Of a DNA stretch of 49,701 nt, positions 5,393 to 48,948 are shown piece by piece. Source of the DNA: Candidatus Acidiferrum typicum (GTDB lineage: Bacteria; Acidobacteriota; Terriglobia; Acidiferrales; UBA7541). The stretch lies in contig JAOAPV010000095.1 in NCBI GenBank assembly GCA_025463055.1, forward strand, positions 1 through 49,701. Direction: 5' to 3'. Within the stretch, counting starts at the first letter, position 1. Each line of letters begins with the position of its first letter. The notes under the pieces were generated by a model. The model saw only the letters and a program-made list of their open reading frames with translations, made no database searches and had not been told where the DNA came from. Position numbers and translations under genes: made by a program.

Positions 5393-6169
5393 GGGAACTT
5401 CCTCGGGGCCGAAGTTTAACACTTTTCGGCTACAGTTCCGACTTCTGGTCATCCGGTATGAGGTTCTAAGAAGAATGAGGTCTTGATCCTTATTTTTATC
5501 GAGACGACACACTTCTTCAAAAGCTTCGAGCCATCGGGTAAGAGACTCTACCTTCTTGCTCGGCTGCCGTCTGGTCGGCCAACCGGAAGTAATCCGTTTC
5601 ATCCGTCATGCGGCCCGCCGGCGGCCATCCTTCCGCCTTCGGCGTGATATAGCGTTGAGCGCTCTGTTCAAACGAACGGTGTTGTAATGCTCTACGTAAC
5701 CCTAACAAGCCCACACTCACATCAACGTCGTCCGCAACAATGGGACAACCAAGTCTGGCTATTCATGGCCCGCCTCCTCCTCCCGCTCCCGCACGAACCA
5801 AAAGGTTCAACCCCTGCCGCTGTTGCATTCTCGAAAGGTGAATTTACTATTGCTTTATCACCAAGCCCGTGGTATGCTCCTTCATGTCAGCCCAAACAAT
5901 CCCCGTAACTCCTTTCTTTCTTATTACATCCCTCCAGGCCGAGCCTTATCAATCACTTACACACTCTTTTGCGCAACGGGAACTCACTATCTCCTCTGTT
6001 CTCTGTGGCTTCCGCACTCTTTTAACGTCAATAGGGGGTGGTACCCCCCCCCAATATTTGTGGTCTCCTACCGTGAACGCCTGTCGCTTTTCGTGCCTCC
6101 GCTGGATGGTGCGCCGCCCGAAATGGGTCTTTGCTGGTGGCAGCACTCTCAGGTGAGGAATAGCTTTTC
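5393..6169. other. Intergenic stretch with one copy of a dispersed repeat
   Basis: About 780 bases lie between two divergent genes. Short open frames here (for example 5687-5908 and 5823-6530) have no family features and the second runs into brkB-like coding sequence. The only structure I see is repeat copy A at 5926-6050, annotated separately. The promoters of the winged-helix gene and of the BrkB-like gene should lie here, but I could not pick convincing boxes. Confidence 0.6.
5926..6050 (+). repeat. Dispersed repeat copy A (about 125 bp)
   Basis: This copy aligns with the complement of 48231-48354 with only one single-base length difference. Conserved blocks are ACATCCCT (5926-5933), CTCTTTTGCGCAACGGGAA (5964-5982), GCTTCC (6008-6013), CACTCTTTT, then GTCAATA followed by a G-run/C-run hairpin (about 6034-6050). 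The spacers between blocks differ in sequence but keep exactly the same length (30 and 25 bases). By hand about 90 of 125 positions match. Confidence 0.75.
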
Positions 6170-7225
6170 ATGGCACAGAACCGATTTGGAACCCGAATCG
6201 AGGAGCCAGCCGCTCCCGAAACAAAATCTCCAGAACAGCGGCGTCTGCCCGACCAACCGCGTCGCGCGCCGCAGCGCGACCCGGCGCCGGACCGCGAGTC
6301 CGCTACCACGCCCAAGCCCTTCGCTTGGCGTCCCAAACCGATTTACGAACTTCTCAAAGCCACCTATGCCGAATGGAGCAAAGACAAAGTTCCTCGCATG
6401 GGAGCCGCCCTGGCGTATTACACAATTTTTTCTCTCGCCCCGCTTCTGGTCATCGCCATCGCCATCGCCGGCTTCGTTTTCGGCCAGAAGGCTGTACAGG
6501 GGCGAATCACAGACCAAATTCAGGGACTAGTTGGCCCCGATAGCGCGCATGCCGTCCAAACCATGATCCAGTCAGCTCACAAACCGGCACACGGCGTATT
6601 CGCCACCATCTTCGGCGTCGCCGTTTTACTACTCGGTGCATCCGGTGTTTTCGCAGAGATGCAGGATGCGCTAAACACGATTTGGAAAGTCGACACGACC
6701 TCCAAAACCGGAGCTTGGAATTTGGTGAAGGCGAGATTTCTGAGCTTTGGAATGGTCTTGGGTATCGGATTCTTGCTGCTGGTCTCCTTACTGCTCAGCG
6801 CGGCGTTGTCTGCGGTTGCCGCCTTTGCTTCTGAATTTCTTCCCATTCCGCCGGCCGCGCTCCATGCCATGGATTTTGTTTTCTCCCTTCTCTTTATCGC
6901 CGGCCTGATGGCCATGATCTTTAAATTGCTTCCCGACGTACCGGTTCCGTGGAGCGATGTATGGGTCGGCGCAACAATCACTTCCCTGCTGTTCACGGCC
7001 GGCAAATTCCTCATCGGCTTTTACATAGGCCATAGTGTCACCATGTCTGCTTATGGCGCAGCCGGTTCCGTGGTCATCATTCTTGCGTGGATTTATTATT
7101 CCGCGCTGATCCTCTACTTCGGCGCGGAATTCACTCGCGTCTATTCCACCCGCTGCGGCTCGCACCGCAGCCCGGAAACAAAGCATGCCGTTCGAGCCGC
7201 AAACGCGGCGGCCAACGTAGCGTAG
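6170..7225 (+). CDS. YihY/virulence factor BrkB family membrane protein
   Basis: The 351-residue protein has a proline- and charge-rich cytosolic N-terminus (about 50 residues), then the YihY/BrkB core beginning KDKVPRMGAALAYYTIFSLAPLL and five to six hydrophobic segments, with the family-typical GASGVFAEMQDALNTIW and YGAAGSVVIILAWIYYSALILYFGAEFTR. Family members are inner-membrane proteins once called ribonuclease BN; their transport or export role is unsettled. The ATG at 6170 follows AGGTGAGG at suitable distance. The gene stands alone. The poorly conserved N-terminal tail is longer than in many relatives. Confidence 0.93.
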   Translation: MAQNRFGTRIEEPAAPETKSPEQRRLPDQPRRAPQRDPAPDRESATTPKPFAWRPKPIYELLKATYAEWSKDKVPRMGAALAYYTIFSLAPLLVIAIAIAGFVFGQKAVQGRITDQIQGLVGPDSAHAVQTMIQSAHKPAHGVFATIFGVAVLLLGASGVFAEMQDALNTIWKVDTTSKTGAWNLVKARFLSFGMVLGIGFLLLVSLLLSAALSAVAAFASEFLPIPPAALHAMDFVFSLLFIAGLMAMIFKLLPDVPVPWSDVWVGATITSLLFTAGKFLIGFYIGHSVTMSAYGAAGSVVIILAWIYYSALILYFGAEFTRVYSTRCGSHRSPETKHAVRAANAAANVA

Positions 7226-47121: not shown

Positions 47122-47207
47122 AGAAACTCTCCTTTTGCTGGTGCGGAATCGCTGAGTATACCATGCTGACGACAACTGCTTTCGCCGCGCGTGCTAGACT
47201 CCTAGCT

Positions 47208-48128
47208 ATGTCTGCAAAGCATGGTGCCGAGAATTCCGGCGAGCAACCATCGAGCTCGCAAACGAGCGCGGCGGAGCCTCGCGGTTGCCTCTACATCGTT
47301 GGCACGCCGATCGGCAACCTTGAAGATATTACGCTTCGTGCGCTGCGCATCTTAAAGGAAGTCGACGTTATCGCATGCGAAGATACGCGGCATACGCAAA
47401 AGCTGCTGAACCACTACAACATCGAAAAAAAACTGGTCAGCTACCACGAGCACAACGAAATGACGCGCTCGCCGGAGTTGCTCATCCAACTCGAGCAGGG
47501 CGCCAAGGTCGCGCTAGTCAGCGACGCGGGCATGCCGCTCGTCTCCGATCCAGGCTACCGGCTGGTCACGCTTTGCGTGCGGCACAAGATTCCCGTCGTG
47601 CCCATCCCCGGCCCTTCCGCGATGCTGGCTGCGCTCTCGGCGGCTGGACTGCCCAACGAGGAATTTCTATTCGTCGGATTCTTGCCGGCGCGCAGCGGCG
47701 AACGGCGTCGCATGCTCGAGCGGCTGCGGATCGAAGAGCGCACTATCATTTTTTACGAAGCGCCGCATCGCGTGGCGGAGAGCATCGCCGATTTGCTCGA
47801 CATTTTAGGTGACCGCCCCGCTTGCCTGGCGCGCGAAGTGACCAAACTTTACGAGGAATTCTTGCGCGGCAAGCTCTCGCAGCTTGCGGAATCTTTGGCG
47901 GAGCGGCCCGCGCGTGGTGAAATTACCCTCCTCGTGGGTCCACCGGAACAGTCCGGCGTCGGTGGGCAAGTGGACTCAACGCAAAGTTTGTCGGATCGCG
48001 TCGAAGAACTGATCCGCCAAGCCAAGCTGGACCGCAAAGATGCGCTGAAGCTCGCGGCCAAAGAGCGGGGCATAACGCGCCGCGCCGCCTACGACCAATT
48101 GATCGATAGCAAAGCAAAGCCGAATTAG
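47208..48128 (+). CDS. rsmI: 16S rRNA 2'-O-methyltransferase RsmI
   Basis: The ATG at 47208 (306 aa) is chosen because homology starts about 25 residues later; the frame opens at 47163. Motifs: CLYIVGTPIGNLEDITLRAL, ACEDTRHTQKLLNHY, ALVSDAGMPLVSDPG, PIPGPSAMLAALSAAG, FVGFLPARSGERR and EAPHRVAESI. It methylates C1402 of 16S rRNA using SAM. The C-terminal helix region (DRVEELIRQAKLDRKDALKLAA) is typical of the family. No ribosome-binding site is obvious, so it may be leaderless. Confidence 0.95.
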   Translation: MSAKHGAENSGEQPSSSQTSAAEPRGCLYIVGTPIGNLEDITLRALRILKEVDVIACEDTRHTQKLLNHYNIEKKLVSYHEHNEMTRSPELLIQLEQGAKVALVSDAGMPLVSDPGYRLVTLCVRHKIPVVPIPGPSAMLAALSAAGLPNEEFLFVGFLPARSGERRRMLERLRIEERTIIFYEAPHRVAESIADLLDILGDRPACLAREVTKLYEEFLRGKLSQLAESLAERPARGEITLLVGPPEQSGVGGQVDSTQSLSDRVEELIRQAKLDRKDALKLAAKERGITRRAAYDQLIDSKAKPN

Positions 48129-48573
48129 CCTTCGACGTTCTAATCAATTGATGTATTTGTTGGCTCCTTCTGTGAGGTAAACCGCCGGTTGCCCTTCCTG
48201 CGAACCTTGGCAAGCGTGGTTTCTGAACGAGGGGGGGTGCCACCCCTATTGACAAGAAAAGAGTGTGGAAGCTGCTGAAAACATTGGTCATACCAGATTC
48301 CCGTTGCGCAAAAGAGTTCGTAACTGCATGAACGCAGTGGGCTTACAGGGATGTGATAGGCAGCACAGGGCTTGCGCCCTCGGAAGACTCGGTCGGCCGA
48401 ACATTCGGGACGACGAGAGTCCGCTGCTGGGTCTACCCACCCCCCTGTTTTGGGGCAAATAGGCGGCAAGGTGCTGAAAACAAAGGGCACGGACCGGAAA
48501 AAGAGATGCAAGAGACTTTAAGAGGCTGCAAGCCACTGAAGGTACGAGATTTAGACTCGGGCGGCGGGAGGAA
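48129..48573. other. Intergenic stretch with repeat copy B
   Basis: About 445 bases between rsmI and a dehydrogenase remnant. It contains repeat copy B (48231-48354) and a second G/C hairpin-like stretch near 48440-48457 (CACCCCCC then TTTTGGGG). A minus-strand open frame (48140-48511) crosses it, but its conservation is at the DNA level, so I do not call a gene. Confidence 0.6.
48231..48354 (-). repeat. Dispersed repeat copy B
   Basis: On the minus strand this matches copy A (5926-6050): ACATCCCT at 48354-48347, CTCTTTTGCGCAACGGGAA, GCTTCC, CACTCTTTT, GTCAATA and a G-run/C-run hairpin ending near 48231. The hairpin has one G fewer than copy A, giving a length of 124. Confidence 0.75.
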
Positions 48574-48948
48574 CTAGCGAGGTTTGTTCGAGATAACACG
48601 AGCGAGGTTACAACAGATCTGAACGTATGTCAATAGTAAACTTGTAAGTGCAATGGTGTGAATGCGGTGGGCGGAAAAGTCAAAAACCCACGGGGCTACT
48701 GTGGTGTTGATGTCTGTGGAGACGCTGACCTCTCGCCAGCGTTCTGCATCGGCTGTGCGCGTTGCCTCGGCTTGGCTGGCGTACTCGACGGCGTCGCTGC
48801 CAATCAGAAGGTGCGGGGGCAACTGATCGCTCGCAGCCAGACGAAGGATGACCTGAGCCACCTTGACCGGATCGCTATTCTCGTTACCCCAGTGAGACTC
48901 CAGGGCCTTGATCAAGCCGCCCACGGACGGTTCATACTCCGGGAGCAA
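48574..48948 (-). pseudogene. Short-chain dehydrogenase, C-terminal remnant
   Basis: The useful part reads EPSVGGLIKALESHWGNEN, DPVKVAQVILRLAASDQLPPHLLIGSDAVEYASQAEA and ERWREVSVSTD, the usual C-terminal end of SDR-family oxidoreductases of the DUF-free 'SDR family NAD(P)-dependent' group. The Rossmann fold with TGxxxGIG and YxxxK is absent. About 40 further residues after STDIN are unrelated. It lies just after the aldo/keto reductase gene on the same strand. A truncated, non-functional remnant is most likely. Confidence 0.7.

Follow-up and report, generated by a model that had tools for sequence, protein, structure and literature searches.

An intergenic repeat family of an Acidobacteriota genus that resembles a mobile promoter-leader cassette with a conserved leader core

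About 30 copies of a repeat lie between the genes of Candidatus Acidiferrum typicum, often just before a gene. We consider this repeat family undescribed, and no description of it was found in open-licence papers in PubMed Central. It resembles a mobile promoter-leader cassette but is defined by a conserved leader core. According to the reading that we favour, to which we assign a probability of roughly 0.4, the element is a duplicating promoter-leader cassette whose core would serve, probably at the transcript level, as an unfolded platform for sequence-specific binding. The starting point was a pair of copies, A and B, in the window, that is, the whole analysed stretch of 49,701 nucleotides, which is contig C140 of a 5.33-Mb draft genome (G000, hereafter the home genome).

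The repeat pair and its distribution

Copies A (5926-6050, plus strand) and B (48354-48231, minus strand) align without gaps and are identical at 78 of 110 positions up to the G run. When the first 110 bases of copy A were placed everywhere in the window, on both strands, the next best placement after copy B reached 47/110, against a background with a mean of 27.4 and a standard deviation of 4.5 matching positions per 110. The blastn comparison of the two copies gave an E value of 4.3e-16 over the last 97 bases, and the pair is absent from the list of a general repeat finder. Thus, the pair in opposite orientation with spacers of equal length, as reported in the preliminary description, is real. 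Some details had to be revised. The longest exact block, given as 19 bases, comprises 20 (ACTCTTTTGCGCAACGGGAA), and the element is longer than the 125 bp first assigned to it, as seen from the model matches and from promoter-like boxes still further upstream (Table 1). The G/C end does differ in length between A and B; the short hairpin ascribed to it is possible in most copies of the home genome, but not in those of the G-run type. The weak unit upstream of copy B overlaps the third-best placement of copy A in the window. A BrkB-family gene follows copy A; copy B, an orphan, points towards the 3' end of a tetrapyrrole methylase family gene, which we take to be rsmI-like.

Table 1. Positions of the two element copies, their parts and the adjoining genes in the window
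Feature	Positions	Strand	Remarks
Copy A of the element	5911..6052	+	Model R1 match, 102 bits; copy in R1 training set
Copy A, promoter-like -35 TTGCTT	5850..5855	+	Inside box TTTACTATTG starting at 5843
Copy A, promoter-like -10 TATGCT	5873..5878	+	ATG at 5884 behind -10
Copy A, first unit motif CACTCTTTT (R1)	5962..5970	+	Read from sequence
Copy A, second unit motif CACTCTTTT (R2)	6015..6023	+	53 bp after first motif
Copy A, G/C end GGGGGTGGTACCCCC	6034..6048	+	Read from sequence
BrkB-family gene behind copy A	6170..7225	+	PF03631 match
Copy B of the element	48229..48369	-	Model R1 match, 104 bits; copy in R1 training set
Copy B, first unit motif AACTCTTTT (R1)	48310..48318	-	Read from sequence
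Copy B, second unit motif CACTCTTTT (R2)	48257..48265	-	53 bp after first motif
Copy B, G/C end GGGGTGGCACCCC	48234..48246	-	Read from sequence
Weak, possibly degenerate further unit upstream of copy B	48433..48505	-	9.7 bits, E 0.026
Copy B, promoter-like -35 TTGACA	48628..48633	-	Inside box TTTACTATTGACA starting at 48640
Copy B, promoter-like -10 TGTAAC	48607..48612	-	Read from sequence
Tetrapyrrole methylase family gene, 3' end facing copy B	47163..48128	+	PF00590 match

The home genome was searched with a pattern first and then with model R1, built from 21 copies. The 41 matches at E up to 1 included 29 copies above 75 bits, after which the scores fell sharply to 35 bits. R1 also matched 20 of 24 genus mates and none of 16 genomes outside the genus. 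A broader model, R2, was built from 33 copies of 15 genomes (33 of 36 candidates; L071, which lacks the motif pair, was left out, as were L049 and L140). All but a few of the element-bearing genomes found belong to one Acidobacteriota genus: R2 matched 34 of 89 family genomes, 30 of the 36 in the genus and 4 of the 53 in other genera. Copy numbers per genus genome rose to at least 39 with R2, these counts being lower bounds with 40 candidates scored per genome. Both models were trained partly on copies that they later find, and 15 R2-positive genus genomes gave R2 no sequence (G004, G006, G009, G015, G016, G017, G023, G041, G042, G043, G045, G046, G047, G048, and G051). Acidobacteriaceae bacterium RYN_13 carries an apparent orthologous copy, located before the same aconitase-family gene, presumably leuC, as home copy L037. 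The many further copies that the preliminary description had anticipated thus exist, 29 in the genome and others in relatives. Since the genome holds 29 strong copies, A and B are just two of these and no special pair, and the view that they bound a 42-kb segment is not supported.

An identical copy of the element (143 bp, 100%) was observed at the ends of two contigs of one relative (G008:C8:60-119 and G008:C27:25-84), so that element repeats may break assemblies and hide copies. Thirteen viral loci matched a short element pattern, the best of them with 17 bits in R2 and the rest with at most 11, compared to 73 for L029, and a plasmid search gave no match to the element. Within the viral and plasmid sequences covered, a phage or plasmid origin was rejected on these grounds. 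We also noticed a second intergenic repeat, designated C type (CCCTTTAGAATSAACACTTAYG.AAAAAC), of which the home genome has 20 copies (G000:C14, C44, C132, and others; L190-L193) and the reversed control none. It is probably a sister of the element; its exact unit pattern matched 5 of 299 genomes, four in the genus and one in another genus of the family.

Leader anatomy, neighbouring genes and folding

The element consists of two tandem units of ~53 bp, each with CGCACTCTTT, and ends in GGGGGTGG followed by a C or G run. Genus-wide, the consensus units are CAACCCCTTTnTTTTCAAnCnnTTnCGCACTCTTTTGCGCAACGG and CAACTCnTTTGTTTTCAATCnnTTCCGCACTCTTTCCATnGCAACGG, followed by the same closing parts, and the unit consensus reads CAACyCCTTTnnTTTCAAnCnnTTnCGCACTCTTTTgCgCAACGG. 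The CACTCTTT motif pair was spaced by 53 bp in all 21 copies first compared, and a second script returned the same spacing for 22 of 22 home copies in which both motifs were resolved; L053 looks 8 bp shorter. A motif-pair search with a free gap of 44-74 bp in 36 genomes yielded 155 matches in 21 genomes versus 6 in the reversed control. Among the 150 matches listed, 103 showed a spacing of 51-53 bp, 29 of 61-63, 6 lay between these classes, and 3 were spaced by 71-72. By eye, many of the 61-63 bp rows carry an extra 10-base copy of CRCTCTTTtG. Moreover, the circular statistic of the spacing amounted to 0.79 at 10.5 bp versus 0.81 at 9.5 and 10, and thus had no peak at 10.5 bp. For both reasons, we regard helical phasing of the units as no more than suggestive.

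The base composition before the G run was C 0.31-0.35 and G 0.12-0.15 in seven genomes, and the mean C minus G value of the home copies was reached by 1.9% of the window stretches. With the G run included, the core values were 0.10 and 0.13, which is no higher than the 0.10 to 0.18 of the upstream leader. The skew thus characterises the leader as a whole. The two end types were compared with the orientation of the next gene. In the home genome, this gene was opposite in 5 of 6 copies of the G-run type and in 5 of 23 of the hairpin type (p 0.01, in a post hoc test with counts entered by hand and two end types assigned visually); across the 105 loci, end type and orientation were not clearly linked.

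Upstream of 11 of the 29 home copies lies a sigma70-like box in the sense of the element. Nine of these boxes resemble TTTACTATTGACA, are followed by a -10 and are located at -67/-68, and two lie further up. No promoter-like box was present in the other 18 copies, and the downstream control region had a box in 0/29. Three of the 11 box-bearing copies (L042, L043, and L050) have a reverse-sense box as well. Directly upstream of several copies without a near box (L009, L014, L016, L018, and other home loci), we observed a paralogous B-type unit (TTACGAATCCCTTTTCCCGCAACCCCTTTGTTTTCACATCC..GGGGTGTG).

According to our home-made gene finder, the next gene is on the same strand for 19 of 29 home copies (p 0.07) and for 66 of the 101 loci at which a downstream gene was called (105 loci in eight genomes; p 0.001 if independent, the loci being not fully independent). 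The next gene was thus on the opposite strand at 35/101 loci and 10/29 home copies. Ten home copies, including copy B, face the 3' end of the opposite gene, for example that of ribosomal L17 or of a member of the lactate/malate dehydrogenase family. The genes downstream of the copies are unrelated to each other. In a Pfam scan of the same-strand genes (without that of L040), 14 of 17 matched a family, hardly two alike, including Ku, CoA transferase, aminopeptidase P, alanyl-tRNA synthetase, the aconitase family, GHMP kinase, cytochrome P450, aminotransferase, ETF-QO, radical SAM, and others.

A structured RNA had been among the initial proposals. RNAalifold on 21 copies gave -0.18 kcal/mol and five weak pairs, none of them compensatory, and a structured RNA was rejected as far as the core is concerned. 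Palindromic sequence is confined to the G/C end of hairpin-type copies and absent from the core. Rfam had no match in the window, and in the 13 relatives' loci only five tRNAs reached the gathering score. As a separate observation, the G007/G010 leaders share, soon after the -10, a putative conserved hairpin on the 5' side, GGCGCGGAGGAGA...CCTTGTCCGCGCC (e.g., L113:2409-2453 and L132:2695-2738), with 90.3% standard pairs but only two pairs with double changes. Of 500 shuffles, 61 reached the observed pairing, 85 the number of double-change pairs, and 13 the score.

Constrained letters that belong neither to a fold nor to a reading frame suggest recognition by a protein or by another nucleic acid. 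According to our working model, the sigma70-like promoter seen in part of the copies would transcribe a leader of tandem ~53-nt units that ends with GGGGGTGG and the C or G run. The pyrimidine-rich, G-poor core would then offer a single-stranded platform to a sequence-specific factor, and the bound factor would set how far transcription or translation runs into the next gene. A reader of the Rho type or of the S1/cold-shock type would fit the core composition. The sense of the boxes, the preference for sense genes and the excess of C over G favour action at the RNA level. Against it stand the opposite-strand genes next to a third of the copies, the 18 copies without a box, the reverse-sense boxes, the C minus G skew common to the whole leader, and the region +180..+400, which in G013/G049 pairs is conserved like the core (see below). 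The reverse-sense boxes and the leader-wide skew slightly lower our confidence in an RNA leader platform.

The motif spacing, with its two classes of 51-53 and 61-63 bp, suits DNA phasing and favours action at the DNA level. The element could accordingly be read as an operator array, i.e., direct repeats about five helical turns apart, occupied on one helix face just downstream of promoters by a repressor, a wrapping protein or a nucleoid factor, while transcription of the core would be incidental. The constant 53-bp distance in the home copies, the few genus-wide matches between the two classes, the lack of a common RNA fold and the third of copies that ignore the orientation of the next gene are consistent with such an array. 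However, many of the 61-63 bp rows have the extra motif copy and many are of shared descent, so that the second peak does not represent many independent events; the circular statistic has no peak at 10.5 bp, and the composition is strongly strand-asymmetric. We consider an operator array possible, though somewhat doubtful.

Conservation between species and spread of the element

In 17 orthologous pairs, chosen for a motif pair in both members, which fixes 16 of the 120 core positions, the core (-30..+90) was 90-97% identical, and 12 pairs had no gaps. The core medians were 0.95 for nine G013/G049 pairs and 0.94 for the G007 group (seven G007/G010 pairs and one G007/G009 pair), compared to coding medians of 0.92 and 0.93, respectively. 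In the same order, the medians were 0.88 and 0.91 for -150..-30, 0.83 and 0.59 for -300..-150, 0.93 and 0.87 for +90..+180, and 0.96 (level with the core) and 0.91 for +180..+400. Conservation of the core thus clearly exceeds that of the flanks upstream, and just downstream only in the G007 group. Of 18 initial pairs, L133/L118 and L134/L115 were left out because their motif pair is in another register, and L129/L162 was added. Of 109 loci, 11 lacked a motif pair and were omitted from the duplicate and pair comparisons; the seven home copies among them were restored by model coordinates, starting with the gene-group comparison.

The pN/pS ratio of the element was 0.80-1.04 over three frames and two groups of home copies (L043 and L053 were left out because of their frame and L057 because of a short match), and it was clearly below 1 in none of the frames tested. 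Coding conservation of the overlapping frame, which the preliminary description had named as one observation that would speak against its view, was therefore not found. Together with a core as conserved between species as coding DNA, these values bear out the proposed constraint at the nucleotide rather than the protein level.

Within genomes, duplicates of 100-596 bp stand before different genes and have modular borders; in six G005 loci, for instance, a border lies at -112. An element is retained by one gene group in four species (G009, G010, G013, and G049), its subfamily differing, by eye, between the lineages. In several orthologous pairs, the upstream sequence is unrelated from about the element on, and the element and the downstream gene are kept; some of these ends are contig ends, and in one reverse case the similarity breaks on the downstream side. 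Close relatives often lose their upstream similarity in the vicinity of the element, so that a general role of the element in rearrangement is possible. In each of two species, we also observed ~550 bp that two different genes have in common in their leaders, at 84-85% identity (L146/L147 and L154/L159); by eye, the letters shared across the pairs suggest gene conversion.

The mobility considered at the outset is thus borne out as far as duplicated blocks of up to 596 bp next to different genes are concerned, but no transposase could be linked to the element and no empty site was found, the element being present in the relative in both of two tries. The repeat-finder list, which had also missed the A/B pair, contained no inverted pair of at least 20 nt within either copy, and RNAalifold gave no paired arms. 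The cassette would spread by duplication and by recombination between intergenic copies.

Duplication and gene conversion could have copied a dispersed repeat without any host function, its similarity between species being kept by homogenisation. The duplicates with modular borders, the subfamilies that differ between species and the often replaced upstream flanks would fit such a repeat. Its core, however, equals coding DNA in identity between orthologues, with few gaps and lower values upstream (in pairs chosen for the motif pair), and four species have kept the element in one gene group. A repeat without function is, in our estimation, quite unlikely.

A relation to RAYT genes was also considered. 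PF01797 (RAYT-like) matches occur in 29 of the 36 genus genomes. The element exceeded 22 bits in 7 of 40 stretches around such matches, versus ~1.4 expected by a hand calculation from the genome density of R2 matches (Poisson 0.0006); the stretches cover 41 of 42 PF01797 matches in eight genomes, which were chosen after some near element/RAYT pairs had been noticed. In the seven stretches, the element was 0.4-2.7 kb away from the RAYT open reading frame, and the other 33 had no element above 22 bits. By eye, the RAYT genes read (six beside an element and five in the home genome) are flanked by other, palindromic repeats, and the core is not palindromic; on this basis, we rejected the element as the repeat of these RAYT genes. 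A REP/REPIN-like element moved by RAYT, a Y1 transposase, is very improbable despite the excess near PF01797 matches. As a side observation, the genus has several divergent PF01797 genes per genome, with elements commoner nearby than expected (L194-L233).

A conserved leaderless small open reading frame or leader peptide is scarcely credible and was rejected. It is hinted at by an ATG or GTG at exactly -27, behind the -10, in 11 of 29 copies and by the variability in the ten in-frame copies, which is lowest at the second codon position (0.21) and highest at the third (0.30). Against it stand a pN/pS of 0.90 in the start-codon frame (0.92 and 1.04 in the other two), stops or frame shifts in other copies, and the distance of 53 bp, which is not divisible by 3 and thus places the shared motif in two frames. 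Moreover, inspection by eye of the G005, G007/G010, and G013/G049 leaders revealed no such start.

Relation to known systems and possible role

Mobile promoters are homologous sequences located upstream of unrelated genes within one genome. The element likewise provides homologous upstream regions for non-homologous genes of one genome, with a promoter-like box in part of the copies. A mobile promoter also carries an active promoter inside the moving segment; the element has predicted consensus boxes in 11/29 copies. It differs in that it is defined by a conserved ~53-bp tandem unit in the leader, under strong nucleotide constraint, and that the sequence in front of it is replaceable. In Rho-dependent attenuators (rut leaders), an unfolded leader with more C than G precedes genes, with a G/C block at its end. 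The element, too, is unfolded, richer in C than in G and ends with a G/C block; its skew is leader-wide, and an action of Rho is putative. In contrast to composition-driven rut sites, which need not be conserved in sequence, the element is conserved in a fixed register.

With REP/REPIN elements and their RAYTs, the element has in common tens of short intergenic copies per genome, differing subfamilies and persistence between species; PMC8049555 describes part of these features, and the phrase "mobile promoters" occurs in this paper. It differs from them in its directional, non-palindromic core, and the RAYT genes read have repeats of their own.

Our favoured reading of the element as a promoter-leader cassette can be extended to a leader code common to the genus. 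In each genome, one post-initiation control would then govern tens of unrelated genes through interchangeable cassettes with tandem, unfolded ~53-nt sites for an undescribed sequence-specific factor. The site subfamilies would change together between species, and the promoters in front would be swapped. Such joint change is expected if the sites and their reader coevolve. We consider this extension rather unlikely in its full scope.

To our knowledge, gene control in Acidobacteriota has been little studied. That a non-coding and unfolded leader element is so strongly constrained and occurs in tens of copies suggests a further layer of control with a putative reader, and the copies constitute a ready set of sites for finding this reader. 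The family would exemplify repeated DNA between genes that is highly conserved without being a structured RNA or a REP element.
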